Shown here: positions 3,142-64,000 of the stretch, one piece after another
Numbering within the stretch: position 1 is the first letter of the stretch
Layout of the letters: the number at the start of each line of letters is the position of its first letter
NCBI RefSeq assembly: GCF_037975245.1
Contig: NC_092565.1
Span: 3,836,499 to 3,900,498, forward strand
Origin: Apostichopus japonicus
Taxonomy: Eukaryota > Echinodermata > Holothuroidea > Aspidochirotida > Stichopodidae
DNA length: 64,000 nucleotides
Direction of reading: 5' to 3'
Translations under genes and position numbers: made by a program
Notes under the pieces: generated by a model
The model's database searches: none
The model's input: the letters and a program-made list of their open reading frames with translations, nothing else
Told to the model about the DNA's origin: nothing

Positions 3142-3204
3142 ATGAAGTTGTTGTATGACCGTAATCTAATGAGACACATGTGTGGAAACATCGGCTCAAG
3201 ATGA
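3142..3204 (+). promoter_or_regulatory. Upstream ORF overlapping the NSD start codon
   Basis: In the leader part of the first coding exon (acceptor AG 3121-3122) an ATG at 3142 opens a 20-codon frame. It ends at TGA 3202-3204, overlapping the main ATG as ATGA. A second in-frame ATG at 3178 shares the stop. It could tune NSD translation by reinitiation. No expression data are available. Confidence 0.4.
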
Positions 3205-4338
3205 ACCCTTCAGATCCACGCAGCCTTCTTCCTCCACCACCACCACTGTACACTGCGACAACTTCATCGTCTCCTGGACGACAGGACTTTGTGAACCCCG
3301 GAATTCAGAGCATTCCCCCAATGAACACATACTCACCGCCGCAGAGCTATGGGCACATACCAATTAACCCCATGCCGGGGCCTCCGTATCACAAGATTGC
3401 CCAGCCGATGCAGCCGAGGGAGTCGATTCAATCTCAGCAGTCCGTGTTCCAGCAGTACACCCCCCAGCAATCATATCCACAGACTCACTACAACCAGGCT
3501 TATCCAGAACAATATTACTCACAGCCCGGTTATCAGCAACCCACATACCGGTCACCGGTCCACTCCATGCCCCAACAGTACCTCCCACAGCACATGGCAT
3601 ACCAGCACGCCTCGCCAACTCAACCGCAGCCGCAGCTGAACCCTCAAAACTATGACCCCTATGGGAGGTCGTATCTGACTAACCAGGGAACGCCGCCCGG
3701 CATCACTATTCCCCAACCGCAGCACCCGCTCTCTACCAACACGGCATTTTCTCAAGTTCAGCCGCAGGCATCACAATCACCTATACAGCCAAGTACCTCG
3801 CCCCTGGCATCTTTCCAACAGAGGCAGACGGCTAGCCCAAGCCGTGTCCCAGCCATAGCCACGTCGTCCTCATCGGCCGGTGCAGTGGACTCCAAGGTTC
3901 AAAATAGCAATTTTACACTCATGAATACTCCCCCTTCAGAAAAACTCTCCTCTTCCGAAAAGCCACCGTCTCCTGCTGCTAAAGCTAAGGACAAACCAGT
4001 GGAGACTGTGAAGGGAGAAGTGCGCAAAGCCATGCAAGACACTGCACAACAAACTGATAAAGAACAGAAGATTCAGAAAGTGAAAAACGAAGCGGTGGTC
4101 CCACGCCCAGTGGCCGCTACTAAGCCTATTACTGTAGCACAGAAGAAGGAGAACGCCAAAGCTAGTCGAGCCACAGTGACCATTCCTGGAGCTCCAAAGC
4201 AACCTCCGGGTTATCACGATGAGAAGCCTTGCGAGTGGCTTGTTGGAGACCTTGTTTGGTCCAAAGTGAGTGGACACCCCTGGTGGCCCTGTATGGTTGC
4301 CTACGACCCAAATCTTGGCATCTACACAAAAATGCAGG
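3201..4338 (+). CDS. NSD2: NSD coding exon 1: Pro/Gln-rich N-terminus and start of PWWP1
   Basis: Begins [10 protein letters not shown] and runs through about 230 residues rich in Pro, Gln, Ser and Tyr, then a charged Lys/Ala segment. It ends in PWWP1 ([18 protein letters not shown]). Acceptor AG at 3121-3122 opens the exon with a short 5' UTR. Donor GT at 4339 leaves phase 1, and the glycine codon is completed in the next exon. Confidence 0.92.
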
Positions 4339-7300
4339 GTAAGTGAACATTTCCTACTACATATAGTCTATGTCATACAGGGAATATAATTTATTAAGTG
4401 TAAACATTTTTGCATTGATCAACTTTGCCTCTTATAAAATACTATGGTTCTGTACACGTACAATTACTGTTGTGCATCGTGGCACTTATATATGGCAAGT
4501 TGCTCATTTTGAAATGCGATAATGGATAAATTATTCACTGTATGCTAAACTGGAATATGTCGCACTGCTTAATTGTACTTTTCCACTTTTTCAACATTGT
4601 TGGATAAATTGACAATATCCAGGCTGCTGTTACTGTCAACCCTTTCCCCTCCCCAAATCTTCTGCCACCAGAACAAGACAAAAAAGGGTCAAAACCTTTG
4701 GAAATATTTGAAGAATTAAATTTAAATATTAGCTAGATACTCTTCTGCAGTGATGTATAAAGACCTGCTGTTTCAGTGTTTCTGTTTTCACGTTAGGGAA
4801 AGGGTTACATGAATGTTCTTTGCCAAGTAATGTTTCTCTGGGTTTACCCCACAGGTGGTATCGGTAGAGGCTTCAGAATGTATCATGTTCAGTTTTTTGG
4901 AGAGATTCCTGAAAGGGGTTGGGTGAGCGGTTCAAGAATCAGAAAGTTTGAGGGAAGGAACCAGTATGAAGAACTTGTGAAAGAAATGATAAGTAGTATG
5001 AAAAAGAAAGACCAGACAAACCTCCAGGCTAAACTAGCAGTGAAAGGGTCTCGTAAAGCTGCCTGGGAGGTAGGCGTCCAGGAGTGCCTGAAAGCGCTAC
5101 CGATGAGTAGACACGAACGTAAACTAAATTTCACTTTTAAGTATGACATGACCAAGAACAAAGGGGGAACCACAAACTCAGAGGAGATTGACATCGTCTC
5201 CTTCGGCGACCATCCTAAAATGAAGGCCAAACGAGCCTATAAGAAACAGAAGGACGATACTCAAGACGCAGAGGATGAGGATGAGGAGAAAAAGGCAAAA
5301 GAGGGCAAAGAATCGGAGAAAGAAAATTCAGGGAAGAAGCAAAAGGACAAAGGTAGCAAGGCAAAGGAAGAAAAGACACCAAAGAAGAAGAAGAAGAAGA
5401 AAGAAGACGAAGGGGAGCCGAGAAGCCTGCGAAAGAGGGGCAGAAAGTCGAACCAGTATCTGAAGTTCCTCACCGAGCGAGAGGAAGAGTTGAGAAAGGA
5501 AGATTCCCTGCTTTCCAAGAAGGACCTGTACGAGAAGTTAGATCAAGAGTGGACTGAAATGTCCGACGAAGATAGATTAAAGTACGAAACAGAGGTGGCA
5601 TCCACTCGTAAGAAATCAGGTGAGGACGGAGTTGAATTGTTTATGAACGGCTTTTTTTTTGTGATGAAAATTATTTGAAACGATTTTCCCAACACTAGAT
5701 ATGCTTTCTTCAGTGTTAGCTATTTTACACCTGATGACAATTTAAAAATCCTTCCCCACTGCAGGAAGTAGATCATGATGTAGTACTGTAGGTTGTCTGT
5801 GGTGTCGTCATTATAGTAGATGTTGTGGTTGTCGTTGATCTGTCCATGGCATGCATACATGTGATATGGTATGTTTGCTTAGTGTGAAAATGTTCATCTT
5901 CATTTCAAAATTTCAGCAAGGTTTGAATTTTGAAGAAGACTATTGTCTTTAGTGGATCAATGATTTGTACAATGTAAAAAAAATTCTTAGCAAGTGTATC
6001 TCCATGATACAAATGCCATAAAGATGTGATGAAGACAGTTTCCAACAAGTTTGTTAAAGCAGGAAGTGCAGTCACCAGCATTACCTCTAATATTTGAGAA
6101 CTGGCTCAGTAATTAGAAATCTGCAACATTTCTGTTAAGTGATCCCAGCCGCACATGGGTATCTTGAGAGGACTTTGTAGACAAGACTCTCGAGAAAGTC
6201 TGTTAGATTGACTCCCATTTCCGGAGTTGATAGGGGGATAGAAAGCTAAGTGACGTCGCATGCTTGACACTATGAATCAGATTTAAAATCAGAAGTCCTT
6301 CTATTGAAACCGATCCTCTCGGCTGCTTCACCAAGAATATGGCATGTTCTTTAGCAGATGTGAAACATCCTTGCAAGTATTGCCATCATTTGACCCCATA
6401 GTTACAACACACAGGATGCTCATTCCGAAACCAGAGAAACAGGGTTAGTATCCCCAGGAAGGATACAAACCGTAAACTGCACATTAAACATTGCCATGAA
6501 GTTGTGCTCATACGTCTATGTCACATGATGACAAAATGGAAACCATTACATATATGTATACATCATATGTATATGTATACATTGAATATATATATATATA
6601 TATATAATGTTGGTTATGAAAGCAACGTTGAAGAAGCTTGAGCTCTCAAGGCCGCATTTCATGAGAACTTGAGAAGCACACAACGATCAGTTAAGTCTCA
6701 AGTGCTGTCAGTTCTAAAGACTTAACCACGCTATCTTGTGTTGGTTTACAGTACGTTGGTAGTTGTAAGCCGTCACTTTGAATGTGATTTTGCCTAAAGT
6801 TCTTTCAACAGTCATGCTCTACACACCAAAAAAAAAAGGGGGGGGGCGTTTTTTTCATGTGATGAAACACCCTAGTCCTCACTCAAGTAAGATATAACAG
6901 AGTATAGTTGATTGAGCGATAGGTAAATTGTAGAGATATATTCAGGTTTACCATCAAAACAACTTTCTAAAATGGCCTGTGGGCTTGTCTGGGCGACTTG
7001 GGGAAGCAAGTCTGTAGTTTTCTGTTGTCCAAGAGACACAGCACTTTCTTAGCATTCAGTTGTGTGATTACTGCTTGCAGGTACAAGATTATTTTGTTGC
7101 ATAATTAATGAGACAGTAATTTGTTGTGTATTATATCTTGATGGTATTCAACTGGGTCAGTGAAGCAGATTATTTTTGGTTGTGATGACAAGTATGCTGT
7201 CATGATGGTATGTGGGAATGTCTGTGAACACAGTATTATCTCAAGAAGGGAAACTTTGTATGCAGTTATCCCATATTGGATGTGATCAACCCTATTGTTT

Positions 7301-25500: not shown

Positions 25501-28500
25501 AGCGTGATATCACCTAAACAGAGCATACTATCATGGTAGTTTCTTCACTGTTCTGTTTTTTGAGCTCTTTCATACAAGATAGTCATGTCAGACACCTGAA
25601 CCAATCCTTTAACGAACGATTACAGATATAATTAAAAACTTGCTGTAGAAGTAGTGGACATGAATTTTAATGCCCAGGGTTTGATCAGAATGTCTTTTTT
25701 TCTGTCTTCCCTTGTCTTTTCAGTCGAACAAACCTGTAGGTAAAGTTCAGATGCCAGTCTTTGACATTTCGTCTTGCCCGTCCTGTGATTGTAAAGCCAG
25801 CATGGACCATCCGTGCCGATCAGATACGGAATGTTTCAACAGACTCGTCATGGTCGAATGCCACCCCCAGGTAAGAGAGCCCACCCCACCAAACCCTCGA
25901 CTTTGTTCCGACTGTAAGGTTCACGTCAGCCACGAGGTGCACTTTGGGTCTTTTGGAAAGGGGGGACGACAAAAAAAAATATCAGGATAGACGATAGCGA
26001 AGACGATTTTACCAGTAATGTTGTCCACATTGTGTCGGGATGTTTCATCTGTGATTTCCCTCTTCTCACACTTTCAATTGGTGGATATTAGTTTCAGGAT
26101 ATATTATATATTATTATAGTTTCTCTTGGTCAGATATGCCATTGAAACCCTCCAGGTTTGTGTAAGTGAAATATGTCTCACAAGAAAATTTCCGAATACA
26201 GGGTAGGAAATTTGGAAGGACTGATTTTAAGGTCATAGTATTACAAATATAATGCTAACAGCAGCTATATTGTCCCTGCCTTTCATTTTCTGTTTGAGTA
26301 TCCTCATTCGGTCCTGTATTAATTTTAATGTCCTGCATTCTCAAAGGTCTGTCCAGCAGGGAACAAATGTGAGAACCAGAGATTTCAGAAGCGTCTGTAC
26401 GCACCCGCTGCTCCCAAGAAGACCAAGGGACGAGGATGGGGATTATATAGCTCTGCAGATATCAAGAAGGTAAAGAAGATTTGGGTCTTCTCTCTGATTT
26501 TTGTGCATATGAATTAAAGACGAGGCCAAATGGAAGTGACTCTACTTATCATAAAGTTATCTTAAGGTTGAGATGATAAATTGATCAGGATATGTGATTG
26601 GATTTGTATGTTTTAATATGTATGTTTGTGTGAATGTATGTTTGCGTGTAGGGTTTTATGGGTGTGTGTATGTATATATGTATTGTTGTGTTTTCGTTGG
26701 CGGGCCTGATTAATGAGACGTCTCAGGATAATTAACAATAATCATTGACAGGATTAAGGTCTGATTCGACTCCCGATTTATTGATATTTTCTCTGCGTCT
26801 GCTTTAGAATATTTGCTTCCCAACAACTCCCAGAACGTGACTCTAGCTGGGAGAACCAGCAAAGGTCCTTCCAGAAAGCTTTGATCTGGGTCTCTTGACC
26901 ACATCACGTGACATACACAATAATGAATAATTATGAATCAATAGCCACATTGAAGATTCACAATCACAACACTGAAGATTATCTTTGATTTTACCGAGAG
27001 GCATTGGAAATCCTCTACACAACAGTATGTCCATAAATGTTTGTTTGCAAAGGCTAGCAAGTCAGACAAAAATGTTGCTTTTAGTAAGGTTAGAAAAGCC
27101 CTCTGTGAAGAGTCCACAGTTTTTACAAACTGAGGTGGAAAATGATAGGACACAGTAGTGAGTTAATTGTCTTTGATTGGCAGTTCTTGCATATTCATGA
27201 TCTGGTTTATGAAATAACTGACAAAATATCTGCCAGACCTGTTGAAGTTATTGAAAATTGTAGAGTTAAGCTCAAATATACTACGAATATTGACAACTGC
27301 AGGTTGTTGGTTATTTTTTTGTTCCGTCCATCTATCAAAATCCGACATTTGCCCTCTCTCTCTCGCAGGGCGACTTTGTCAACGAGTACGTTGGCGAATT
27401 GGTGGACGAGGAGGAGTGTAGACGGAGGATAGAGGAGGCGCACGTCAACAACATCACTGATTTCTACTTCTTGACCATCGACAAGGACAGGATCATCGAC
27501 GCAGGCCCCAAGGGGAACATGTCACGGTTCATGAACCACTCGTGCCAGCCGAACTGTGAGACCCAGAAGTGGACCGTAAACGGTGACACCAGGGTGGGAC
27601 TGTTTGCCCTGGAGGATATACCTGCAGGTGGGTGGTGGTACTAGATCTGGCTTTGAAGAAGAATTGAAATTAATACCGTGTCGCGATTTAAGAACTTTGT
27701 TTGTGGGGCAGACTGTAAAAGATGCTCATTTCAAATTGTTTGCTGTGTAAAAAAAAAAATCAGCAATTTAGGCCCACAGGGACTGTAGGCTTAAAATTTG
27801 AAAGTGAACTGGAACCATAGAAACAACCAGAATAAAGAAAGAAGGAAGTAAAAGCAGGATATAAACAACACTGAGGGGTGTGAATGGGATACATTCTTTC
27901 CAAGTTGGTCATCGTGGCTGTCATTGTCGAGAATAAATAAACCATATTGTGTTGATCGTGACCCGACAGGTCGAATTTACTTTAGTTCTTGTTTACAATA
28001 GTTCAATAGTTCAAATAGTTCAATAGTTCAAAATAGTTCAATAGTTCTTACAATAGTTCTTGAATTTACAATAGTTCTTACAATTATTCTTGACTGTCTG
28101 TCATGCATCAATGAACCACAAATGTGGTAAACTATAGAGCTTCATTCATAGATTCTTCAAGTTGTCGTACACAAATTATTTCCATTCATAATATGGGAGT
28201 GAACTTGAACCCTGCAAAACAAAAGAAGGAATAAAAAAAAGGGAAAACCCAAGAAACAAACAACGTATTTTCCAAGTTAGTCGGCATGGCTGTTATCATC
28301 TTGAATATGTGTTGATTGAAACCCCACGGGTAGAATTTACAATGCTTTTTTATTCTCGACTGTTTTATCATGCGTGTACGTAATCTAACTGTAGTGGACT
28401 GAGCTTCATCCATAGATTCCTTCAAAATGTTATCCACAAATTATTTGCATTTATAATTCTCTGATGAATGGAAACATTTTTGGGGTGATTTCTTAAATTG

Positions 28501-29354: not shown

Positions 29355-29409
<55 letters not shown>

Positions 29410-32400
29410 TACGTGTACTATTTTTTTGTCTTGCCTTTACTTCAGGTTCTGAACTCAACTTTAATTACAACCTCGAAAGTCTGGGAAATGAGAAGAAAGA
29501 ATGCCGATGCGGTGCTTCCAATTGTAGCGGTTTCATCGGAGTACGCCCTAAGGTGAGTTTTATAGGAGTACGCCTTAAGGTGAGGTTTACAGGAGAACGC
29601 CCGAAGGTGGTAAGGTTTATAGGAGTACACCCTAATGTGTGGTTTTATAGGAGTACCCCTTAAGGTGAGGTTTACAGGAGTATGCCCTAAGGTGGTAAGG
29701 TTTATAGGAGTACACCCTAATGTGTGGTTTTATAGGAGTATGCCATAAGGTGAGGTTTATTGGAGTACGCCCTCAGGTGGTAAGGTTTTAAAGGAGTATG
29801 CTCTAAGTTAAGTTTTCTAGAGGTACGCCCTACGGTGGTGAGGTTTATAGGAGTACGCCCTAAGGTGAGGTTTTATAGTAGTACGCTCTAAGGTGATGTA
29901 TATACGAGTATGCCTTAAATTATGTTTTAAAGTAGTATGCTCTAAGGTGAGGTTTTATAAGAGTATGCCTTAAATTATGTTTTAAAGGAGTACGCCCTTA
30001 GGTGAGGTTTACAGCAGAGGGCCCTAAGGTGAGTTTATAGGAGTACGCCCTAAGGTGTGGTTTTATAGAAGTACGTCATAAGGTGGTGAGGTTTATGCCC
30101 TAGAGTGAGGTTTAATAGGAGTTTGCCTTAAGTTAAGTTTTATAGGATTACACATTAAGTTTTATCAGAGTACGCCCTTAGGTGAGGTTTATAGGAGTAC
30201 GCCCTATGGTAATTTGTTTTCGGGGGTTTCCCATTGATAACTTTTTCCTGGTTTTAAGTATGAATATAGGTGTGACTATCACCTAGCTAGGTTAGTCACA
30301 AAAGTTCCTTTTCAAATTGTTTTGATCAGGATTTCACAACTTTCAGCTCTGCAATGTTCTCTAACAAAAGCTTTGTGGTTGAACGATTTTAACAATAGGA
30401 TTTAGTGTGGTACTATAGTTCCGCCAGTTCACTCTCTATTTAATTCAACCGGACAACTTGAATGGCAAATCATTGTCAAATATATTTGTGTTAATATATG
30501 TATGACTCAGTGTATAAGTGAAAAACATTTAAGGGGTGGAAGTTGAAAGTGTCTTTGTGCATGGTGGTTGTTGTTGTAAGTGTAGCGACTCATAGAATGA
30601 TAGACTGGTGAACTGCATGCCTACATAAAGTTTTCATAGCTGCCTGTGAAGTGTTCTCAACATACACTGTAAATCTATCTTGTATTTATTGTACGGTGTC
30701 TGTAATGTTTGTCTATGTAGTACAATGTTATCCTCATACCAGGTGACTCACTACTGTCCATACTCTAATACTGGACAGTGTTTGTAGTGTTTGTCTCTGT
30801 AGTACAATGATATCCTCATACCAGGTGACTCACTACTGTCCATACTCTAATACTGGACAGTGTCTGTAGTGTTTGTCTCTGTAGTACAATGATATCCTCA
30901 TACCAGGTGACTCACTACTGTCCATACTCTAATACTGGACAGTGTTTGTAGTGTTTGTCTCTGTAGTACAATGATATCCTCACACCAGGTGACTCACTAC
31001 TGTCCATACTCTAATACTGGACAGTGTCTGTAGTGTTTGTCTATGTAGTACAATGATATCCTCACACCAGGTGACTCACTACTGTCCATACTCTAATACT
31101 GTACAGTGTTTGTAGTGTTTGTCTCTGTAGTACAATGATATCCTCACACCAGGTGACTCACTACTGTCCATACTCTAATACTGTATAGTGTCTGTAGTGT
31201 TTGTCTCTGTAGTACAATGATATCCTCATACCAGGTGACTCACTACTGTCCATAGTCTAATACTGTACAGTGTCTGTAGTGTTTGTCTCTGTAGTACAAT
31301 GATATCCTCATACCAGGTGACTCACTACTGTCCATACTCTAATACTGTATAGTGTCTGTAGTGTTTGTCTATGTAGTACAATGATATCCTCATACCAGGT
31401 GACTCACTACTGTGGGGTGGGGGGAGTTGACAAGGGAAGAATTGTTCCTGGAATAATTCCAGCATTATCTTCGGCTCACACAATTCATTGTCTTCAAATT
31501 CTTCTTATCCAATTCTCTGTTAACTCTTCCAAATTCTTTTTCCCCGACAGACTGCTGCTGCCGAGGCTCAGGAAGAGAAGGCGAAGAAAGCGAAAGAGAG
31601 AAAGAAGAGGCGAAGGAAAAAGCAAGGCCAGGACACGAGGCAGTTTCACGAAGACGAATGTTTCCGGTGCGGTGTTGGCGGTGAACTCATCATGTGTGAC
31701 CGCAAAACATGCCCAAAGTCGTACCATCTCAGGTGTCTGAAACTTCAAAAGAAGCCGTACGGTGAGTTACAGAGTTTTCTAAACTTTTCTTTAATTGTAT
31801 CATACATTGCACCCGGTTCCATTAAATTCTCTCAGCTTCTAGTTTTAAATATTTCACGTCTTAAATGGAAACCCATCTTCCCATTAATTTGCATAGGGCG
31901 TGCTTCTGTGACTTTATCAAGCTGTGCCCCCTCTTGAAGAATTTGGCTGCTAGAAATAACAAAAATGACAGAAAATTTTTAACTTCATGCATCTAAATCA
32001 AACCTACCAGAAATTGAGGGTCCGAAAAGTTTTTTTTTTTGGGTCGCTATTTTGTCAATAAAAAGTTTTGACAGTTGTGTTTTCTTTTCTCTCTCTTTTC
32101 AGGCAAATGGGATTGCCCTTGGCACCACTGCGATGAGTGCGGGAAAGCCTCGTTAACCTTCTGTGCCGAGTGCCCCAACTCGTACTGCAAAGTCCACCAA
32201 AAGGAGAAATTTGAGTCGATCGTGGATAAGCTGTTCTGCAAAGAGCATAACTTGGTCCAAATACGGAAGGAAGAAGAAGGCAAACAGATCGAAGCGGAAG
32301 CCAAGGTGATTCAGGAGGCCACGGAGGCGGCCAACCAGAGGGACAGCAAGACTGACTTGGTCAGCGAAGAGAAGCCCGTCGTCGGGAAGGCCGCCTCCGA

Positions 32401-32965
32401 CAAGCCAAAGAGGAAACGGAAACAGACGGTGAAAGCGAGAGAGGAGGTAGAAGAAGCATCGTCGAAGAAGCAGAGGAGAACGTCCCCGGTGAAGAGAGGA
32501 GGCGGGAAGGGGAAGGACACAGGGAAGGGGAGAAAGAGAAAACGAGATCAGTCCGTGGAGAAGCAGGGCAAGAAGAAAGTCAAGGAGGAGGAAAAAGCCA
32601 ACATGCCGGAAACAGGGGAAGCTGAGGCCATGCCGAACGGGGCCATCGATTGCAAAAACCACCTGGATGTGGAGAAGGAGGAGAAGGAGAACCGCCTTGA
32701 TGAGGTGCAAGAGGAGAAGGAGGAGAACCACCTAGATGAGGAGAAGGAGATGGATGGAGACAGCGACAGAGAGCTGGTCATCGTGGAAGAAGAAACGGAC
32801 AGTCCGAAGAAGAGAAAGAAGAGAGAGGATAAGGAGAACAAAGTAGGAGGGGAATTGAAGGCCAAGAAAGGTGGCAAGGGCAGTCCGAAACATAAAAAGA
32901 AGAAGAAGAAGGAGAAGAAGGAAGGCAAGAAGCACAAGAAACACAGTAAAAAAGGTGTGAAATGA
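3201..32965 (+). CDS. NSD2: NSD-family histone-lysine N-methyltransferase (H3K36), 19 coding exons
   Basis: Nuclear SET-domain enzyme expected to methylate histone H3 lysine 36. Exons: 3201-4338, 4855-5619, 7668-7804, 8518-8700, 9792-9875, 10297-10453, 17820-17911, 18578-18707, 19249-19449, 21619-21798, 22633-22792, 23249-23454, 24098-24210, 25724-25870, 26347-26469, 27369-27627, 29446-29552, 31551-31761, 32103-32965. They sum to 5256 nt (1751 aa plus stop) with every junction GT-AG and in phase. Approximate domains: PWWP1 345-430, HMG box 573-634, PHD block 850-1065, PWWP2 1065-1145, AWS 1198-1250, SET 1250-1375, post-SET 1375-1394, PHD/C5HCH 1430-1485, basic tail to 1751. The SET core keeps NHSCQPN and FNYN. 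The length falls between vertebrate NSD2/NSD3 and NSD1. The HMG box favours NSD2 naming, but a single ancestral NSD equally related to all vertebrate paralogues is likely. The start is the first in-frame ATG after stop 3162; the in-frame GTG at 3180 is not needed. Confidence 0.93.
4855..5619 (+). CDS. NSD2: NSD coding exon 2: rest of PWWP1, acidic/Lys-rich linker, HMG box
   Basis: Acceptor CCCACAG at 4848-4854. It completes PWWP1 ([16 protein letters not shown]), continues through a Glu/Lys-rich linker and ends in an HMG-box-like helical segment ([15 protein letters not shown], then [20 protein letters not shown]). Donor CAG|GTGAGG at 5620. The HMG box is a feature of vertebrate NSD2. Confidence 0.92.
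5620..7667 (+). other. NSD intron 2: no gene; TA tract and repeat relic
   Basis: Holds a TA microsatellite at about 6586-6606 and a diverged copy, at about 7190-7330, of the repeat family found at 45.9-48.5 kb. Nothing else recognisable. Confidence 0.6.
7190..7330 (+). repeat. Diverged copy of the 45.9-48.5 kb repeat family
   Basis: TTATCTCAAGAAGGGAA followed by GATCAACCCTATTGTTTTGG and GGTCAAAGGTCAT parallels the segment at 46035-46150 (ATAACTCAACAAGGGAT, GAACCCTATTGTTTTTGG, AAAGGTCACC). The similarity is by eye only. Confidence 0.5.
7668..7804 (+). CDS. NSD2: NSD coding exon 3: basic linker
   Basis: Acceptor TTTGCAG at 7661-7667, donor AAG|GTACGT at 7805. It starts at phase 1 (D completed by AT) and ends at phase 0. 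The protein is Lys/Arg-rich ([15 protein letters not shown]... [10 protein letters not shown]), a likely disordered, nuclear-localising linker between the HMG box and the PHD fingers. Confidence 0.85.
8518..8700 (+). CDS. NSD2: NSD coding exon 4: acidic then basic linker
   Basis: Acceptor TTCTTCAG, donor CAG|GTGAGT at 8701; exactly 61 codons, symmetric phase 0, so it could be skipped without a frame change. Encodes [16 protein letters not shown]... followed by a Lys/Arg/Ser stretch ending RKSSDSQ. Confidence 0.85.
9792..9875 (+). CDS. NSD2: NSD coding exon 5: short basic linker
   Basis: 28 codons, phase 0 at both ends. Acceptor TTTCTTACAG, donor GAG|GTAGGT at 9876. Encodes [20 protein letters not shown]... 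LTDE. This is the second symmetric linker exon in a row, and both are candidates for alternative splicing. Confidence 0.82.
10297..10453 (+). CDS. NSD2: NSD coding exon 6: Ser/Thr/Ala-rich linker with alternative read-through end
   Basis: Acceptor TTTCACAG; donor ACTG|GTAAAG at 10454 (phase 1) joins in frame to the glycine codon at 17820. Encodes [20 protein letters not shown]... TSTSTTTG. If the donor is not used, the frame stays open for 19 further codons and stops at 10512, giving a short isoform. Confidence 0.85.
10513..17819 (+). other. Large NSD intron: possible short-isoform 3' UTR, no other gene seen
   Basis: A 7.4-kb intron from 10454. The first 1.4 kb could be the 3' UTR of the short isoform. 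The rest is AT-rich with poly-T/poly-A runs and TAGGCCTA-type words near 16410 and 16600. The two overlapping open frames at 15459-16011 on opposite strands show no motif, and I do not call them genes. Confidence 0.5.
11871..11876 (+). terminator. Candidate poly(A) signal for the short NSD isoform
   Basis: AATAAA followed about 20 nt later by GT-rich sequence (GATTGTGATTGG). It lies 1.36 kb past the read-through stop at 10512 and inside the large intron of the full-length transcript. Confidence 0.35.
17820..17911 (+). CDS. NSD2: NSD coding exon 7: lead-in to PHD1
   Basis: Acceptor TTTTCCCTCAG after a 7.4-kb intron; donor CAG|GTAAAG at 17912. Encodes [20 protein letters not shown] then KKDHVCQ. 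The Cys opens the first zinc-binding cluster, as in vertebrate NSDs where a similar HVCQ/VCQVC stretch precedes PHD1. Confidence 0.88.
18578..18707 (+). CDS. NSD2: NSD coding exon 8: PHD finger 1
   Basis: Acceptor TTGCAG, donor CAG|GTAATT at 18708, phase 1. Encodes [27 protein letters not shown] and FKCDECIS. The Cys/His spacing is that of a C4HC3 PHD finger and matches the NSD first PHD (CEG..C.GAFH..C). Confidence 0.92.
19249..19449 (+). CDS. NSD2: NSD coding exon 9: PHD finger 2 region
   Basis: Acceptor TTTCAAAG, donor AAAG|GTTAGT at 19450. Encodes [34 protein letters not shown] and [12 protein letters not shown], the second PHD-type zinc cluster of the family. Phase 1 at both ends. Confidence 0.92.
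20046..21500. mobile_element. 1.45-kb TIR transposon with decayed THAP domain, in NSD intron
   Basis: Ends are inverted copies: ATTAAAGAGGTTATGAAATG at the left and CATTTCATAACCTCTTTAAT at the right. Both also carry TGACGTCA-like words further in. Inside, a plus-strand frame from ATG 20393 reads like the start of a THAP zinc finger (GCS, then FPKDDRNRR) and stops at TGA where the family has Trp. A minus-strand frame from 21197 ([11 protein letters not shown]) is Ser/Asp/Glu-rich and frameshifted. The element is therefore a non-autonomous or dead copy of a cut-and-paste transposon. No clear target-site duplication was found. Confidence 0.75.
20393..20491 (+). pseudogene. THAP zinc-finger fragment
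   Basis: 32 codons: [32 protein letters not shown], then TGA. The spacing Cys to FPKD..RR is that of the N-terminal half of a THAP domain (C2CH, DNA-binding, common in P-like transposases). The C-terminal Cys/His pair is not in frame. A broken copy. Confidence 0.5.
21619..21798 (+). CDS. NSD2: NSD coding exon 10: zinc-cluster continuation
   Basis: Acceptor CTCGACAG, donor CACAG|GTGAGT at 21799. Encodes [26 protein letters not shown] and SWCFICSTG, closing PHD2 and opening PHD3. The 5' intron contains the 1.45-kb TIR element at 20046-21500, which ends only about 120 bp before this exon. Confidence 0.9.
22633..22792 (+). CDS. NSD2: NSD coding exon 11: PHD finger 3 and start of PWWP2
   Basis: Acceptor TTTTGTCTCAG, donor CAG|GTAAGC at 22793 (phase 2). 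Encodes [32 protein letters not shown] and [15 protein letters not shown]3 runs straight into PWWP2, the normal NSD arrangement. Confidence 0.93.
23249..23454 (+). CDS. NSD2: NSD coding exon 12: PWWP2
   Basis: Acceptor TTTGGCAG, donor GCAG|GTTAGT at 23455. Encodes [37 protein letters not shown] and VFLFQEGDK, a highly conserved NSD PWWP2 core expected to read methylated H3K36 nucleosomes. Confidence 0.93.
24098..24210 (+). CDS. NSD2: NSD coding exon 13: helix after PWWP2
   Basis: Acceptor CTTTCAG, donor AAG|GTACAT at 24211. Encodes [20 protein letters not shown] and then a Lys/Glu-rich tail, matching the helical region that ends PWWP2 in NSD proteins. Confidence 0.88.
25036..25613. mobile_element. 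0.58-kb MITE with long terminal inverted repeats, in NSD intron 13
   Basis: The left end GTTAAAGGATTAGTTCAGGT and the right end ACCTGAACCAATCCTTTAAC are near-perfect inverted copies continuing for about 48 bp. A second inner pair is GATGTCACATCCTCAC near 25203 and GTGAGGATGTGACATC near 25425. No coding capacity. Confidence 0.75.
25724..25870 (+). CDS. NSD2: NSD coding exon 14: AWS domain (first part)
   Basis: Acceptor CTTTTCAG, donor CAG|GTAAGA at 25871; 49 codons, phase 0. Encodes [14 protein letters not shown], then C at the DTECFNRL motif and VECHPQ. The clustered cysteines are the zinc ligands of the associated-with-SET domain. The preceding intron holds the MITE at 25036-25613. Confidence 0.93.
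26347..26469 (+). CDS. NSD2: NSD coding exon 15: end of AWS, start of SET
   Basis: Acceptor TCTCAAAG, donor AAG|GTAAAG at 26470; 41 codons, phase 0. Encodes [18 protein letters not shown] and [19 protein letters not shown] is the cofactor-binding start of the SET fold. Confidence 0.93.
27369..27627 (+). CDS. NSD2: NSD coding exon 16: SET catalytic core
   Basis: Acceptor CTCTCGCAG, donor GCAG|GTGGGT at 27628. Encodes [60 protein letters not shown] and ALEDIPAG. The pseudoknot motif NHSCQPN and the conserved YVGEL are intact, so this SET domain looks active. Confidence 0.95.
27795..28455 (+). repeat. Diverged tandem duplication within NSD intron 16
   Basis: Two blocks repeat in the same order: GTGAACTGGAACC/GTGAACTTGAACC, TTCCAAGTTGGTC/TTCCAAGTTAGTC, a ...TCGAATTTAC/...TAGAATTTAC word, and GAGCTTCATTCATAGATTC/GAGCTTCATCCATAGATTC with CACAAATTATTT. 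Copy 1 runs about 27795-28195 and copy 2 about 28196-28455. Copy 1 also holds a short AATAGTTC array at about 28003-28087. Confidence 0.65.
29354..29411 (+). repeat. (TTTA)n microsatellite
   Basis: About 14 uninterrupted TTTA units ending 35 bp before the post-SET exon, so it forms part of that exon's pyrimidine-rich acceptor region. Confidence 0.95.
29446..29552 (+). CDS. NSD2: NSD coding exon 17: end of SET and post-SET
   Basis: Acceptor TTACTTCAG (preceded by a TTTA microsatellite), donor AAG|GTGAGT at 29553. Encodes [29 protein letters not shown] and IGVRPK. The three post-SET cysteines are present. The last nine codons (SGFIGVRPK) are the source of the downstream minisatellite. Confidence 0.94.
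29526..30209 (+). repeat. 27-bp-type minisatellite derived from the end of the NSD post-SET exon
   Basis: About 25 copies of a 24-32 bp unit with consensus ATAGGAGTACGCCCTAAGG then TGAGGTTT. The first copy is the last 27 coding bases of the exon (codons for SGFIGVRPK). The next two copies are exactly in register, with AAG|GT at 29553, 29580 and 29607. Later copies drift in length and sequence. Many keep the donor-like AAGGTGAG. Confidence 0.9.
30695..31413 (+). repeat. 82-bp tandem repeat array, about 8.8 copies, in NSD intron 17
   Basis: The word ACCAGGTGACTCACTACTGT recurs from 30738 to 31394 with an exact period of 82 bp (8 x 82 = 656). Copies differ by a few substitutions and show no length change. 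Each unit holds TTTGTCTCTGTAG and CCAGGTGACT, resembling acceptor and donor sites 22 nt apart. Confidence 0.95.
31551..31761 (+). CDS. NSD2: NSD coding exon 18: basic linker and C-terminal PHD
   Basis: Acceptor CCCCGACAG, donor ACG|GTGAGT at 31762. A Lys/Arg helix is followed by [36 protein letters not shown]. This is the C-terminal PHD that in NSD proteins pairs with the following C5HCH module. Confidence 0.93.
32103..32965 (+). CDS. NSD2: NSD coding exon 19: C5HCH module and Lys/Glu-rich tail, stop
   Basis: Acceptor CTTTTCAG. Encodes [31 protein letters not shown], then about 230 residues of Lys/Glu/Arg-rich disordered tail ending KKGVK and TGA at 32963-32965. Long antisense open frames here are a by-product of the purine-rich codons. 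Confidence 0.93.
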
Positions 32966-38410: not shown

Positions 38411-39883
38411 TCAAGCAGAAGGCCCGTCAAATGTGGGGTTATCAATTCCGTTGTTATTTTTTGCCGTTGTATTTACGTCATCTATGACGTCAACGGTCGA
38501 TTTGACGTCATTATTCAGTTCAACGTCAACGTTAATATTCAGATCCTCTTCGTTCTTTCCCCGATGACGTTGAACTATGAAGTTAATGGCTCCTGCAATG
38601 GCACCAATCGCGGTTGTGAATATTACGGCGAGGTACGCCGTACGAACCGCCAAATCTCCCTCCGGTGCTGGATAAAATATTACTAATATCCCCGCTGCCA
38701 ATAGCGCATTCTGTATACCCGTCTCTAAGCCAATCGTGAGAGCAGATTTAGTTTTCACGCAGACGAGCTTGGCCACGATTGCGCCTAAAGCTGTACCTAT
38801 CAGAGGAAGGGCTATTGCTGCCACATAGATCTCCCAACTAGATCGGAAAACGTACAAACGAAACGGAAAGTCGAGTGCCAGAAGACCAATCAGAATGACA
38901 ACTGCTAGGCTCTTCAACCACTTTGTTGCAAATTCTTTGTATTTTGGAAACTTGTAACCTAAGAAAATCCCTACAAGAAACGGCCCGAGGATCAAGATGA
39001 GTTGTATGATCAGCTCAATGTATGGTACCTGAAGGCTGATGTCATCCCCAGCTACAGGTCTCGTGTAGAGAAACATGTTCAGAGGCATCATACCCAACGC
39101 TAGAATGTTAGTCGTAACAGTCATCGTTACGCTTAACGCATAGTCCAGACCGAGAATAACGCTTAGGGTGTTGCTGAGGTTACCACCCGGACAAGTGCCG
39201 ATCAAGATTAGTCCCAGAGACGTAGCGCTGTCCAGACCTAGCAGGATTGTTAAAGCCAGTGCCAGGGGAGGCATGATGGTGAATTGGGCTATGACTCCGA
39301 CAATAACACCCCATGGTTTCTTTATCCGTTCCAATACTTCATCTAGTTCTAATGTCGATCCTAATACACAGAACCAGAGGATCAATACAGCTATGACGCC
39401 ATATTGTATAATCGTCCCGATCAACGTCTCCACGAGTTTCACCTTGACTACTATGCTAGCAACAACGGTAGGGTTCTCGTCCGTTATCTCCACGATACCG
39501 TCTTGCTCAATCCTCTCCTCCGCCGCCACCATCTCTAAACCCTCAATACCGATACTGTGTGCGTTGATATCGAGTTGAAATGTGAACGGTAAATCGTTGC
39601 CCGGTTCCAGAATATATCCCACGCCATCTTGAACGGTCACCGTAAATACTGCTTCGCTGGAACTTCTAACGATAATCGCGATTGGCCTCTCACCGGTAAA
39701 CCGTTGGACGGTGGCATTTACTGAGGCAACATCGCCTTCGCTTAAAAGAAGGGATCCATTTATCACATCGAATGTTACTTCCAGCTGGTAATCACGATCG
39801 TCCGGTGTTAGCCGATTCTGAGCGGAAACGGAGGCCAGGAGAAAGGTGAAACACAAAATCGGGAGAAGGTAGTTGTTGGTCAT
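38411..39883 (-). CDS. SLC10-family sodium/bile-acid-type symporter, SLC10A3/A5-like
   Basis: 490-aa membrane protein, predicted to sit in the plasma membrane. It starts MTNNYLLPILCFTFLLASVS, a clear signal peptide. The frame extends 13 codons upstream only from a TTG, so the ATG at 39883 is chosen. Residues about 22-150 form an extracellular domain with NGS and NAT glycosylation sites. Eight or nine hydrophobic segments follow. Family signatures are GTCPGGNLSNT (about residue 228) and ETGIQNALLAAG (about 386), the sodium-site regions of the SBF fold. The tail is Asn/Asp-rich and cytosolic. The N-terminal ectodomain and the lack of coding introns match SLC10A3 (P3) and SLC10A5, whose substrates are unknown. 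Bile-acid transport should not be assumed. No clear poly(A) signal seen close downstream. Confidence 0.9.
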   Translation of the reverse strand: MTNNYLLPILCFTFLLASVSAQNRLTPDDRDYQLEVTFDVINGSLLLSEGDVASVNATVQRFTGERPIAIIVRSSSEAVFTVTVQDGVGYILEPGNDLPFTFQLDINAHSIGIEGLEMVAAEERIEQDGIVEITDENPTVVASIVVKVKLVETLIGTIIQYGVIAVLILWFCVLGSTLELDEVLERIKKPWGVIVGVIAQFTIMPPLALALTILLGLDSATSLGLILIGTCPGGNLSNTLSVILGLDYALSVTMTVTTNILALGMMPLNMFLYTRPVAGDDISLQVPYIELIIQLILILGPFLVGIFLGYKFPKYKEFATKWLKSLAVVILIGLLALDFPFRLYVFRSSWEIYVAAIALPLIGTALGAIVAKLVCVKTKSALTIGLETGIQNALLAAGILVIFYPAPEGDLAVRTAYLAVIFTTAIGAIAGAINFIVQRHRGKNEEDLNINVDVELNNDVKSTVDVIDDVNTTAKNNNGIDNPTFDGPSA

Positions 39884-40192
39884 TTTCGATAGCCTTCGTT
39901 CTTGACTATGACAGACGAGCAAACAGTCTCACACAGACAGACAGACAGACAGAGCTACACGAAGAGAAAACGAGAGCAAAATTAATTTCATCATTTCGGG
40001 GGGAAAAAATATGAAAATGATATACGAAGTAGTAAGCCCGTCAGCCGAAAGATAAAACATAAATACGTGATGGACACTATATAGTTGCATAGCTGTTACA
40101 GAAGTGTCATAACGTAAGCCATAGACCCGTGTACTACACACATCTTTCCTTAGTGCAAAAATTAGGTTAAGTATGATCAAGGTATTTCTATG

Positions 40193-46018: not shown

Positions 46019-48476
46019 ACGCTTAAGCTTGTATGCACGATAACTCAACAAGGGATTGACTGATCATGATCAAACTTGGTGGGTGGGTGGCCCATAGTGA
46101 GTAGATGAACCCTATTGTTTTTGGTGCCCACAAAGGTCACCAAAGGTCAGTTATGGTCCAAAAACCCAAAATACTAAAACTGCAATAACTCCCAGTGCCA
46201 ATGTGCGACAAGGTTGATATTTTGGGACAAGTTGTGAACTGGTTAGGGAAACATTTTGAAACTTAACGGTCATGTGATGTGAGGTCACCAAAGGTCAATT
46301 AATGTTAAAAAACTAGTTTTTTTGCGATAACTTGAGAACGAATTGTCCGTTAGGGTTGGGAGTTGCTTCAGTGTAATCCAATTGTCGACCCACATCTGGG
46401 TGACCCTTGACCTCAATTTGACCTCTGGTGACCTTTTCATGTTTTGGGGATTTTTACAGTTTCGATGCTATTTTCAGATGTCAAAGGTACCTTCCGATCA
46501 TAAATATCGATAGGTTGACCCCCGTGTGACCTTTGTGTGCGAACTTATAAGGGGTCAAAGTTTTCGGTCGGAGTTAGGATGGCTGTAAAGACTTATCGTG
46601 TTGATTTTTGGAATCAGCAGATCAAACTACATTTGAAACCAAGGTCAAAAGGTCAAAGGTCACATTAGAAAAAATGTGCTTAGTTTGGGAGAAAACGGGC
46701 GAAAAAGAAAATGTTTGGTTTTGATGCTAGATTTGGATATCAAAGGTACCTTCCGATCAAAAATGTCAATGGGTTGACACCCGGGTGACCTTTGTGTGTA
46801 AAGTTATACAAGGTCAAAGTTAATTTTCAGACATTTAATGCAATAACTCCCAGGGCCAAGGTGTAACAAGGTTGATATTTTGGGACAAGTTGCAAATGGT
46901 ATAGAGGAATATTTTCAAACTTAACGGTCATGTGATCCGAGGTCATCAAAGGTCAATTAATGTTAAAAAACTAGTATTTTGGGTGAGAAAATGGGCAAAG
47001 AAAAAAATGTTTGAATTTTTACAGTTTTGATGCTATATTCACATCTCACCAATCAAAAATGTCAATAGGTGTACCCCAGGTGACCTTTGTGTGTGAAGTT
47101 ATATGAGGTCAAAGTAAATTTTCAGACATTTAGTGCAATAATTTCCAGTTCCAAGGTGTGACACAGTTGATATTTTGGGACAAGTTGCAAATGGTATAGG
47201 GGAATATTTTCAAACTTAACGGTCATGTGATCCGAGGTCACCAAAGGTCAATTAATGATAAAAAACTAGTATTTTTGCGATAACTTGAGAATGAATTGTC
47301 CGTTAGGGTTGGGAGTTGCTTCAATGTAATCCAATTGTCGACCCGCATCTGGGTGACCCTTGACCTCAATTTGACCTCTGGTGACCTTTTCATGTTTTGG
47401 GGATTTTTACAGTTTCGATGCTATTTTCAGATGTCAAAGATACCTTCTGATCATAAATGTCAATGGGTTGACCCCCGTGTGACCTTCGTGTGCGGAGTTA
47501 TACGAGGTCAAAGTTAATTTTCAGACATTTAATGCAATAACTCTCAGTTCCAAGGTGTGACACGGTTGATATTTTGGGACAAGTTGCAAATGGTATAGGG
47601 GAATATTTTCAAACTTAACGGTCATGTGATCCGAGGTCACCAAAGGTCAATTAATGATAAAAACTAGTATTTTGTGATAACTTGAGAACGAACTGTCCGT
47701 TAAGGTTGGGAGTTGCTTCAATGTAATCCAGTTGTCGACCCGCATCTGGGTGACCCTTGACCTCAATTTGACCTCTGGTGACCTTTTCGTGTTTTGGGGA
47801 TTTTTACAGTTTCGATGCTATTTTCAGATGTCAAAGGTGCCTTCTGATCATAAATGTCAATAGGTTGACCCCCGTGTGACCTTCGTGTGCGAAGTTATAC
47901 GAGGTCAAAGTTAAAAAATATTAATGAGGTCACAGGTCAAACGTGAAAAACTCCCAAGTTGCAATAACTTGGCTACTATTTATTGGAATTTCGTCAAACT
48001 TGGTATGATATTGGTAGATAGTCTCCACACACTGATGTGTGTTGCAATTGATATCATGCATGTTTATAGGGGGGGGGGGGCCTAGCATTATTTCGTTATG
48101 AAAAGTTTGTATGCACAATAACTCAACAAGGGAATGACCAATCATTACCATACTTGGTGAGTGGGTGGCCCATAGTAAGTAGATTAACCCTGTTGATTTT
48201 GGTGCTCATTTCATGAATATTAATGAGGTCATGGGGTCAAACGTGAAATACTCCAAATTGCAATTACTTGGCTACTATTACTAGTCGGAATTTCGTCAAA
48301 CTTGGTATGATGATAATGGTAGATAGTCTTCACACACTGATGTGTGTTGCAATTGATATCAGGGCTTAGCATTACTTTGGCAACAAAAGTTTGTGAGCAT
48401 AAATTACTGTTGTTGTATTAGGGCTTTGTTAGAAATTTCCCTATGAATGGAACTAATGAACAGCAGCAAGGAACCA
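45924..48476. mobile_element. 2.55-kb repeat element with 12-bp terminal inverted repeats and internal 400-bp units
   Basis: It starts TGGTTCCTTGCT and ends AGCAAGGAACCA. Inside: a TG microsatellite (about 45966-46017), then three to four degenerate units of about 300-400 bp. TTGATATTTTGGGACAAGTT recurs at 46214, 46872, 47167 and 47566. Two shorter units at 47940-48090 and 48230-48370 share TTGGCTACTATT and CACACACTGATGTGTGTTGC. It is non-coding and rich in AGGTCA/TGACCT. No clear target-site duplication was seen, so the boundaries are inference. Confidence 0.65.
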
Positions 48477-57799: not shown

Positions 57800-59743
57800 C
57801 TACATGTTCAAAGAAGCTGTTATCAAATCACCTTGGTGAGAACAAGTGATAGTATAGATTTTGTCAGCATTTTCCATGGCGATATCTGGCAAAGATAGTG
57901 GGTCGTCGATCCGGTACTCTATAATGGTACCTTTGCGATTGTCTTGGTCTCGCCATAGGGCGAATAGTGAACCTTTGCCATTACAACAGATACTAGTCGG
58001 ATGGCTTACCTCAGCAAATCCAGAGGGAGGATTTATAGCTCTGTTTTTCTGGAGTAATTCTTCTGACTCTAATCCAGTACAACAGATAATGTTTCCATTA
58101 CGACTTTCATCTTCTGTATGTGCAATGAATAGAGCATCATTTAGAGTGGCCACATCAAAATATCTTCCACCAGGAAATAAGACTGCTTCAGATTGCAGAG
58201 GCTTCATTCCAAATTCATTACCAGCCACGGAAATGAGAACTACCTCGCATACGTTATTTACGGCAATAAATTGATCCTGTCTGTGAGCTTCTGCACAAAT
58301 GATACTGGTCTCGACTAACGGGTGCTCTAAATTCATGCGGCCATTGTGGTCAAACATGAGGAGAAGCTTTTGAAAGAGCATGCACCAACCGTTAAAGTTG
58401 GACAACGTCATAATTGCTACGACGGCGTTAGCTCTTCTTGATGACATCTTAGAACTTAGAAGTTGTCGGCGGCGTCTTGTATCACTGGTAGTGAAGACTC
58501 TCATATCAGTTTTATCCTCATCTTCGGTAGCTATCGATATGAAGTCCTGATTCACGTGCAACCTCATCGCTTTCAATGAAGCGTACCCTTTTTCTTGTTT
58601 TAGTGTCAGTTGCAAGCTATAAGACTGCTCTCTTGACTTTGCCGATGTTGAAAGAGATGACATGCGTTGCCGGATGGAAGTCACGGGGACTTTCGTTGGT
58701 GCCGATGTAGTTCGACTTCGAATAGAGGACCCCGTAGCCAAAACATACCCTCTGTTGCGTAGATCTTTCTTCCAGTGTTGCACAGTGACTTCAACTATGT
58801 TAGGATAGTCTTTTTCTTGAGTGATGAACGGACAGGTAGTTCTCGCTGAAACAGAGACGGGAAGCTCGAGGGAAGTATCAGTTGAATTTGGAGGATTATT
58901 GACCAGGGGAGTCTCACTCAATCGAGATGACAGTTCTTTGGGACCGTATTCCGCTAGCTGAGCCTCAACTGCGTTCAAACATTCTTGTCTGACGATACGG
59001 TTGCATTTCTTATGGCGAGGTACACTACTTATGACCCCGTCTGGATCCAGAGATTCTAGAATGCCATCGCTGGAATGTTCTGGACTGAATTGCTTACCTA
59101 ACTCGTAGACGTCCGACGGAAGAACCCGCAACAAGGATTCCGACGTTGGCGGTTCTTGATTGATGCTTCCCCATAGCCAAGATTTTATCATCGATGGGTC
59201 GTCGGCTTTCTCAGTGTTCCTACGAAGCCTCTTAAATTTCTCTTCGTAAGTTCGCTCGACTTGCTTTAACAATGTTGCCTTGCGTGCTTCAAGAGTATCT
59301 CTGACTCCTTGTAGTAGATTCAATGAAACTTGTTCGATATTTGCCTTTATTTCCTCTTTCTGTTCTTCCAGTAACTTTTCCACTTCTCTTTCTTCTTGTT
59401 TCTTCTTCTCCTGTCTAGTTGACATCAGGTCAACGAGTTTATCAATGATGTCATCTGTAACACCATTGACTTTCATGAGAGGTATACGTTCCATCATCTG
59501 TTCAGCCATATAAGCGCCGGGTAAAAATTCCGCTTTTAATCTGGGAGTAGGTGCCGCTCGACAAGTAGGGCACGATTTCAGAAATTTGTTTGGCTGGTTA
59601 TCCTCCTCCTTCCTAAGGCATTGCAGACAGAAGACATGGCCGCATGGTAAAACTTTCGGTGACTTCAGAATGTCCAAACAGATCGGACACTGAAACAATT
59701 CATCTATGCTGTCCGACCTACTGACTTTGGTAAACTTCGCCAT
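57800..59743 (-). CDS. RING-finger / coiled-coil (TRIM-like) E3 ubiquitin ligase, intronless coding region
   Basis: 647 aa. A C3HC4 RING occupies residues 19-61 (Cys19, Cys22, Cys34, His36, Cys39, Cys42, Cys58, Cys61) with the typical CPICLDIL and LPCGHVFC motifs, so it should recruit an E2 and act as a ubiquitin ligase. No B-box is visible. A charged coiled coil lies at about 105-178. After a Ser-rich linker, the C-terminal 300 residues contain repeated hydrophobic strand-like blocks (FIAVNNVCEVVLISV, FDVATLNDALFIAHTEDE), suggesting a beta-propeller, but I see no clear NHL repeats. The start ATG is preceded by a 5' leader with an acceptor (CTTTTTCAG, exon from 59782), so a non-coding first exon is likely. 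Echinoderm-type genomes carry expanded TRIM-like families, some linked to immunity. Role here unknown. Confidence 0.88.
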   Translation of the reverse strand: MAKFTKVSRSDSIDELFQCPICLDILKSPKVLPCGHVFCLQCLRKEEDNQPNKFLKSCPTCRAAPTPRLKAEFLPGAYMAEQMMERIPLMKVNGVTDDIIDKLVDLMSTRQEKKKQEEREVEKLLEEQKEEIKANIEQVSLNLLQGVRDTLEARKATLLKQVERTYEEKFKRLRRNTEKADDPSMIKSWLWGSINQEPPTSESLLRVLPSDVYELGKQFSPEHSSDGILESLDPDGVISSVPRHKKCNRIVRQECLNAVEAQLAEYGPKELSSRLSETPLVNNPPNSTDTSLELPVSVSARTTCPFITQEKDYPNIVEVTVQHWKKDLRNRGYVLATGSSIRSRTTSAPTKVPVTSIRQRMSSLSTSAKSREQSYSLQLTLKQEKGYASLKAMRLHVNQDFISIATEDEDKTDMRVFTTSDTRRRRQLLSSKMSSRRANAVVAIMTLSNFNGWCMLFQKLLLMFDHNGRMNLEHPLVETSIICAEAHRQDQFIAVNNVCEVVLISVAGNEFGMKPLQSEAVLFPGGRYFDVATLNDALFIAHTEDESRNGNIICCTGLESEELLQKNRAINPPSGFAEVSHPTSICCNGKGSLFALWRDQDNRKGTIIEYRIDDPLSLPDIAMENADKIYTITCSHQGDLITASLNM

Positions 59744-59829
59744 GACGGTTGAATTAGGATACGTAATAGCTATCTATTGCGTCTGAAAAAGCAAAAACAT
59801 AAAAGAGAAAATAAATATTCATCAAGATT

Positions 59830-63052: not shown

Positions 63053-64000
63053 TATGAAATGTAGAAAATGAGACTTCAACAAGCACAGTAAGAAAGTATA
63101 CAAAGTTGTATGTTCCAATATTTCGCCGGTTAAGGCTTTATCGAGGAATGAGGTGCAACTACCGACTCCGTGTATATAAGTAAAAAACTTTAAAACCAAT
63201 TCCCCTGAGCTGAAACGCACCAGCGAACAAACTGTATTCGGAGCGCACAGACGGACCAGCAAGATGTGAAAAGCTTAAATATCCAATTGACGTCCAGCAC
63301 AGCCATTCATTAAGTTATTACTGGCTTTAATGGTAAGGGCTTCGATTATTTTTCTTTCACTGATATTGGGTAGGTTGTGATGTAGGATTTGCCAATTGAG
63401 TATTTTCTCCAGATTTCGGATTTATATTGTGAGTTTGTAAATGAGTGTATATGGTCTGTTTAGTCATACGTAGATGTTCTTTTATTCTCGTTCCAATGGT
63501 GCATCCCGTTTCGCCGATGTATGTAGACGAGCAAAGATTGCATTTAATCTTGTAGACACAGTTTTTGGCTAAACAGATATTCTTCTTTACAGCGATTTCG
63601 CAGGTGTCACAGTTGGGTGGGCAACCCTGTTTGTCACGTGGCGCGGAAAACAAACTCGCTGATGGATTACCTGTCATGAAATGTGTTCTCAGATTTGTAA
63701 TGCCCGATCTGCTGATTGTTGCCAGGGTCTGCCGTTTTATGTTCTCGTTCACAAATGGTACTTTTAGGTAAATTCTTTGATCTTCAGATGGTCTAGTAGG
63801 GGTGATTATTGTGTGTTTCATGGTTGAGTTCACGAATATTTTAGGATATCCGTTTCTTATGAAGTTAGTTTTTACTTGTTTAAGAGATAGTTTAGTTGAG
63901 GGTTTGTCTGTGGACCTGTGAAAGAAAAATAATCGAAGCCCTTAACATTAAAGCCAGTAATAACTTAATGAATGGCTGTGCTGGACGTCAATTGGATATT
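63053..64000 (-). mobile_element. Penelope-like retroelement, 3' part, with inverted terminal-repeat copies
   Basis: The minus-strand coding part (63357-63917) is followed by a non-coding tail to a TA tract near 63053. An 83-bp segment at 63278-63360 (AATATCCAATTGACGTCCAG to TTTTTCTTTCAC) is repeated inverted at 63918-64000. Penelope-like elements often have such terminal repeats in inverted arrangement. The window ends inside the right copy, so its extent is unknown. Confidence 0.75.
63357..63917 (-). CDS. Penelope-like protein: RT C-terminus plus GIY-YIG endonuclease, partial
   Basis: An open frame that continues upstream of the first GTG at 63833 (there is no ATG there). It first shows the end of a reverse transcriptase (LKQVKTNFIRNGYPK), then a cysteine-rich linker (CPPNCDTCEI) and a GIY-YIG-type nuclease start: VYKIKCNLC, STYIGETG and TRIKEHLR. 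The Arg and Glu-His of the nuclease motif are present. GIY-YIG after RT is diagnostic of Penelope-like elements. It stops at 63357, exactly where the repeated terminal segment begins. The catalytic RT core would lie upstream, but the inverted repeat replaces it here, so this copy is 5'-truncated. Confidence 0.8.
   Translation of the reverse strand, partial: RSTDKPSTKLSLKQVKTNFIRNGYPKIFVNSTMKHTIITPTRPSEDQRIYLKVPFVNENIKRQTLATISRSGITNLRTHFMTGNPSASLFSAPRDKQGCPPNCDTCEIAVKKNICLAKNCVYKIKCNLCSSTYIGETGCTIGTRIKEHLRMTKQTIYTHLQTHNINPKSGENTQLANPTSQPTQYQ

Follow-up and report, generated by a model that had tools for sequence, protein, structure and literature searches.

The sea cucumber Apostichopus japonicus carries, in the 64-kb stretch of contig NC_092565.1 analysed here (64,000 nucleotides; "the window" below, to which all coordinates refer), an NSD2-like gene whose exon translations read as an NSD protein by homology to NSD2, NSD3 and NSD1. 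The closest solved structures by sequence are NSD2, NSD3 and an enzyme described as 'H3 lysine-36 and H4 lysine-20 specific', which we take to be NSD1. A protein stitched by hand from the window agrees with a predicted A. japonicus protein (P0121, NSD2 isoform X2) at 754 of 758 aligned residues, one 28-residue gap aside. Our subject is the intron behind the post-SET exon of this gene, which opens with a minisatellite of about 25 units, the first of them being the exon end together with its 5' splice site. The features on which the argument turns are given below (a slash marks the splice junction):

29446..29552, + strand: 107-nt post-SET exon (translation, splice-site reading, NSD homology, motif conservation)
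29529..29556, + strand: first, founder-like unit, made of the last 24 exon bases and intron GTGA; 26/28 identical to the 28-base consensus GGTTTTATAGGAGTACGCCCTAAGGTGA
29550..29558, + strand: true 5' splice site AAG/GTGAGT, intron start at 29553, score 12.32, joined as RPK/TAAAE in P0121
29553..30211, + strand: the 24 intronic units of the minisatellite (Tandem Repeats Finder, wrap-around alignment, unit alignment)
31551..31761, + strand: next exon, encoding a PHD finger; its acceptor CCCCGACAG/ACTG has no relation to the array

The last 27 coding bases of the exon (29526-29552) read AGC GGT TTC ATC GGA GTA CGC CCT AAG, that is, SGFIGVRPK, and are followed by GTGAGT from 29553. Tandem Repeats Finder reports an array at 29530-30210 with a period of 27 and 24.9 copies, as well as periods of 55 and 85 bp over the same span, and wrap-around alignment resolves 25 units between 29529 and 30211, of which all but the first are intronic and occupy ~0.66 kb. 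An earlier note, made from the letters of this DNA, had announced about 25 copies at 29526..30209; number and place are borne out by both methods, although the homology starts at 29529 and the right edge lies at about 30211. Its unit of 27 coding bases, however, has to be replaced by one that comprises the last 23-24 coding bases (GFIGVRPK) and the first four intron bases GTGA. Since the unit spans both the coding end and GTGA, every copy carries a 5' splice site. Most units are 27-28 bp long, with a full range of 24-30 bp, and they are diverged.

The resemblance between exon and intron is well above chance: the exon 27-mer aligns to the intron with a local score of 19, whereas the maximum among 500 dinucleotide shuffles was 13, a comparison that could have refuted the earlier note and that instead supports it. 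Against the rest of the 64-kb window, on either strand, the best score of the same 27-mer was just 10. A 24-base unit pattern allowing up to 3 mismatches had 12 matches in the window, none of them outside the array, while 100 shuffles gave 0. Chance similarity was considered as an explanation and is ruled out by these shuffle controls and the pattern search. The exact 24-base unit was also not found in viral contigs, which has little bearing on an animal repeat. As a further control, each of 17 exon boundaries of the NSD gene was tested on the adjoining 1.5 kb of sequence, with 100 shuffles (four of the boundaries, 19447, 22793, 23251 and 31760, being placed 1-2 bases off), and the post-SET exon end alone exceeded all of its shuffles (19 vs at most 12).

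As to the direction of the duplication, the peptide encoded at the exon end is the key. The motif CSG[FY][LI]G[VD]RPK occupies this place in 120/120 NSD matches, namely the 120 proteins listed of 1636 passing, and human NSD2 and NSD3 carry the peptide too; the conservation of SGFIGVRPK across NSD proteins, previously asserted, thus holds for the matches listed. The exon sequence therefore long predates the array, which is seen in a single animal. Taken as a consensus, the 24 intronic units have retained the reading GFIGVRPK and depart from the exon at two bases, both synonymous. The intronic copies themselves look unconstrained, with 21 of 79 changes being synonymous as compared to about 30% expected without protein constraint. 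Moreover, in the unit alignment the exon unit has a mean identity of 0.74 to the copies, which are only 0.69 identical among themselves, as expected if it is a slowly changing founder. Together with the unit anatomy, these findings support the view, put forward in the earlier note, that the exon end and its 5' splice site were amplified into the intron, and we regard this direction as well supported by the sequence. The reverse, in which the exon took over a pre-existing intronic minisatellite as its end, can call on the similarity of exon and units itself and on nothing further; it was rejected on the conservation of the peptide in animals as distant as human, which makes the exon older than the array, and deserves practically no credence.

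The internal structure of the array records part of its growth:

29614-29698 and 29699-29783, + strand: a tandem pair of 85-bp higher-order blocks, each three units long, 78/85 bases identical, the first units of the two blocks being identical
29869..29978, + strand: a tandem pair of 55-bp higher-order blocks, each two units long (U13/U15 identity 0.89, U14/U16 0.82; Tandem Repeats Finder period 55)

Consistently, the nearest neighbours of units around 29869-29978 in the unit alignment are two units apart. The 85- and 55-bp blocks thus imply that the array also grew by block duplication. The intronic copies differ from their consensus by ~16% (97/614 cells), and the array is therefore presumably not very recent and would be expected in near relatives. 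The one CpG of the unit has lost its C in 9/24 copies and its G in 4/24; when the exon unit is included in the count, eight of the C changes are to T and one is to G, a pattern that would fit decay by methylation.

The earlier note also placed the true donor ahead of a series of duplicate donors, and this is what is found: 29553 comes first, and GT is kept at the donor position in 19/24 intronic units. The statement that many copies keep AAGGTGAG fares less well, the exact string being present in 6/24 intronic units, while AAGGT is kept in 11/24. Scored with textbook donor frequencies, the true donor is the joint best of 77 GT sites between itself and the array end. A control site at 27627, set one base off its place, scored negative and is left out of account. 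A score of at least 6 is reached by 18 of these 77 sites (true donor counted) vs 12 of the 145 sites elsewhere in the intron, nine of the 12 lying in a second array described below. The donors at 29580, 29665, 29750, 29865 and 29947 differ from the true donor only at +6, and one copy equals it:

30026..30034, + strand: copy donor AAGGTGAGT, all nine bases identical to the true donor, GT at 30029

In the column mismatches of the 24 intronic copies there is no sign of selection keeping or removing extra donors: donor columns are mismatched in 30/184 cells vs 67/430 in the other columns (Fisher p 0.81, computed on copies that are related). One of the other columns has too many mismatches (10/23) owing to the difference between 27- and 28-bp units, and without it the comparison becomes 57/407 (14%) vs 30/184 (16%) for the donor columns. 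Eleven units (29559-30195) also contain an acceptor-like TTTA[TC]AG/G that lies 14 bases ahead of the AAG/GT of the unit; such pairs of acceptor-like and donor sites could, judged by their motifs, define 14-nt microexons.

Which of these donors is used may be read from predicted proteins. Both P0121 and a second one, P0122 (80% identical), join RPK/TAAAE, and donor 29553 is therefore used with acceptor 31550 in these predictions. Most likely, the exon-proximal donor is still the one chosen by the spliceosome. If the exon is instead read through, the following sites come into play:

29577..29612, + strand: extra in-frame donors with GT at 29580 (+9 residues), 29607 (+18, weak) and 29610 (+19), followed by a weak one at 29637 (+28), from frame and donor scores
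29661..29663, + strand: first in-frame stop TAA on read-through; all later donors, from 29665 on, lie behind it

The array might accordingly act as a set of alternative donors, with 29580, 29607 and 29610 giving isoforms that carry 9, 18 or 19 extra residues between the post-SET region and the PHD finger, and the later donors giving premature stops and lower expression. The frame is indeed open to 29661 and donor 29580 scores 11.12, and tandem repeats at exon-intron boundaries of human duplicated genes can alter splicing (PMC2812944; here and below, the cited papers are drawn on through excerpts). However, the insert is missing from both predicted proteins, the donor columns show no better preservation than the rest, and protein constraint is not seen in the copies. 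The read-through words VSFIGV, GVRLK and RFTGERPK occur in 0/241 retrieved proteins, and when a protein database was searched for the read-through peptide itself, the one protein returned did not contain it. Taken together, we consider regular use of alternative donors unlikely. A bolder proposal builds on it, namely that the array serves an H3K36-methyltransferase gene as a tunable splice switch, in which the number and state of the copies in each individual set the use of the in-frame donors 29580-29610 or of the post-stop donors and thereby alter the post-SET linker or the dose of NSD; this we hold to be more doubtful still.

Several observations nevertheless weigh against neutral copies behind a single used donor. 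P0121 is a predicted protein, and clustering of the database at 90% could hide isoforms with a short insert. Human IFI6 does use downstream repeat units as donors (PMC4526556). With copy donors so nearly identical to the true one, a preference for the first is not explained by sequence alone. The constraint test on the intronic copies counts related copies as independent, and the apparent restriction of the unit to NSD is a result for the 64-kb window. In the boundary control, finally, the PHD5 exon end equalled the best of its 100 shuffles, an outcome that chance may produce once among 17 comparisons.

New introns can arise when a segment bearing AGGT is duplicated in tandem, an accepted route of intron gain (PMC3443670), and the unit carries AAGGT, so that the duplication might have created the intron itself. 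For this intron we find the idea very hard to sustain: the unit does not recur at its acceptor, so that it is not bounded by two copies of a segment, and its position seems to be shared with other animals. Among 58 database proteins that reach the exon end, eight continue with RPKV[SK], those of Oncorhynchus nerka and Lottia gigantea included, as expected from read-through of a donor at the same place; the intron is therefore probably old. By this reading of the sequences it is probably also older than the array. Further downstream, the same intron contains a second tandem repeat:

30696..31413, + strand: second array, unrelated to the exon end, with an 82-bp unit, 8.8 copies and 96% matches (Tandem Repeats Finder); CAG/GTGACT occurs in it nine times (donor scan)

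This 82-bp array is the younger-looking of the two.

In our preferred account, a sea cucumber lineage would have acquired a tandem duplication of the 3' end of the post-SET exon and the first intron bases, and the array would then have grown by slippage or unequal exchange to about 24 intronic copies, partly as 55- and 85-bp blocks. Each copy would originally have been a complete 5' splice site. The first donor at 29553, which combines a conserved place with a joint-best sequence, would have remained in use, so that the copies leave with the intron and decay neutrally. We put the probability of this account as a whole (boundary duplication, array growth, use of the first donor, neutral copies) at roughly 0.8. 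The array, its unit anatomy, its direction, the neutral-like decay of the copies and the fit of the predicted proteins to the canonical join are shown by the analysis, whereas how the duplication came about, which donor is chosen in RNA and that the copies lack a function are inferred. Read in this way, the array would be a by-product of tandem duplication across an exon-intron boundary.

Some further features of the gene and the window deserve mention. A perfect TTAT microsatellite with 14 copies lies at 29355-29410 (Tandem Repeats Finder), about 35 bases upstream of the post-SET exon acceptor. The last coding exon contains at 32306-32389 an 84-nt GT...AG stretch (28 residues) that is open in the window and missing from the predicted P0121; it may be an in-frame exitron, an allele or an annotation difference. 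At 32657-32760, the sequence coding for the C-terminal tail of the NSD protein contains a tandem repeat with a 36-bp period and about 3 copies (Tandem Repeats Finder, translation). Upstream, open reading frames at 3165-5675 contain a PWWP-like and a possible HMG-box-like stretch (domain names assigned by eye) and are probably the N-terminal part of the NSD gene. Elsewhere, long open reading frames are present at 38414-39928, 57803-59773 and 63360-63941 (minus strand), which by eye we take to resemble a bile-acid:sodium symporter, a RING/TRIM protein and a retroelement end with a GIY-YIG-like motif, respectively, and a 397-bp unit is repeated in 2.2 tandem copies (94% matches, Tandem Repeats Finder) at 47052-47914.

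Repeats that straddle an exon-intron boundary have precedents, although none from an echinoderm appeared in the titles and abstracts of the literature searched (most subscription papers lying outside it). The closest in kind are the 'mirages' of amphioxus, minisatellite-like tandem duplications of exon-intron boundaries that are described in Adh3, the globins BflGb6 and BflGb9, TnC and PGBD5 (PMC3087553; PMC3902484). Like them, the NSD units, 25 in number and built of 24 exon bases plus GTGA, reach across the boundary and multiply the splice signal, and like them the array keeps this signal in many, but not all, units: the excerpts report AG/GT in many mirage units and unit lengths of 10-72 bp in Adh3 (PMC3087553; PMC3902484), to be set beside the donor counts given above (GT 19/24, AAGGT 11/24, AAGGTGAG 6/24). 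The boundary repeats of amphioxus are reported not to disturb regular splicing (PMC3087553). In contrast to the mirages, the NSD array belongs to an echinoderm and to an NSD gene, and its units, about 25 in number and 27-28 bp long, are old and diverged; whereas length and somatic instability are reported for amphioxus Adh3, the NSD array is known from one sequence.

Human genes offer single cases. In CBS, the 31-bp variable number tandem repeat c.1444_1467+7(16_21) comprises, by its name, 24 coding and 7 intronic bases in 16-21 copies (PMC2630376), a design almost the same as the 24 coding and 4 intronic bases in about 25 copies seen here. The CBS units, however, are all 31 bp long and polymorphic in number, as compared to diverged units of 24-30 bp in the NSD array, and gene and lineage are unrelated. 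The CBS repeat is also reported to affect splicing. In IFI6 (6-16, G1P3), a minisatellite of splice donors has two downstream units in use and yields three mRNA species (PMC4526556); there the downstream units serve as donors in mRNA, while the NSD copies are candidate donors read from sequence. Dual-specific AGGT splice sites have been described in repeat genes such as UBC, where AGGT repeats can change splicing or form introns (PMC10809524), but those repeats are coding and are either kept or spliced out, whereas the NSD array is intronic and lies beside a conserved exon.

The phenomenon is thus already known in lancelets and humans, and the novelty here lies in the animal group and gene concerned, in how many old copies there are and in how readable their ancestry is. 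The NSD array is an unusually legible case, with about 25 copies of one donor and an ancestral state that is known because the exon is constrained, and it offers a natural series in which to study how cells settle on the foremost 5' splice site when many near-identical ones follow. It also extends to an echinoderm the boundary-spanning minisatellites that received their name in lancelets and are represented by single cases in humans.
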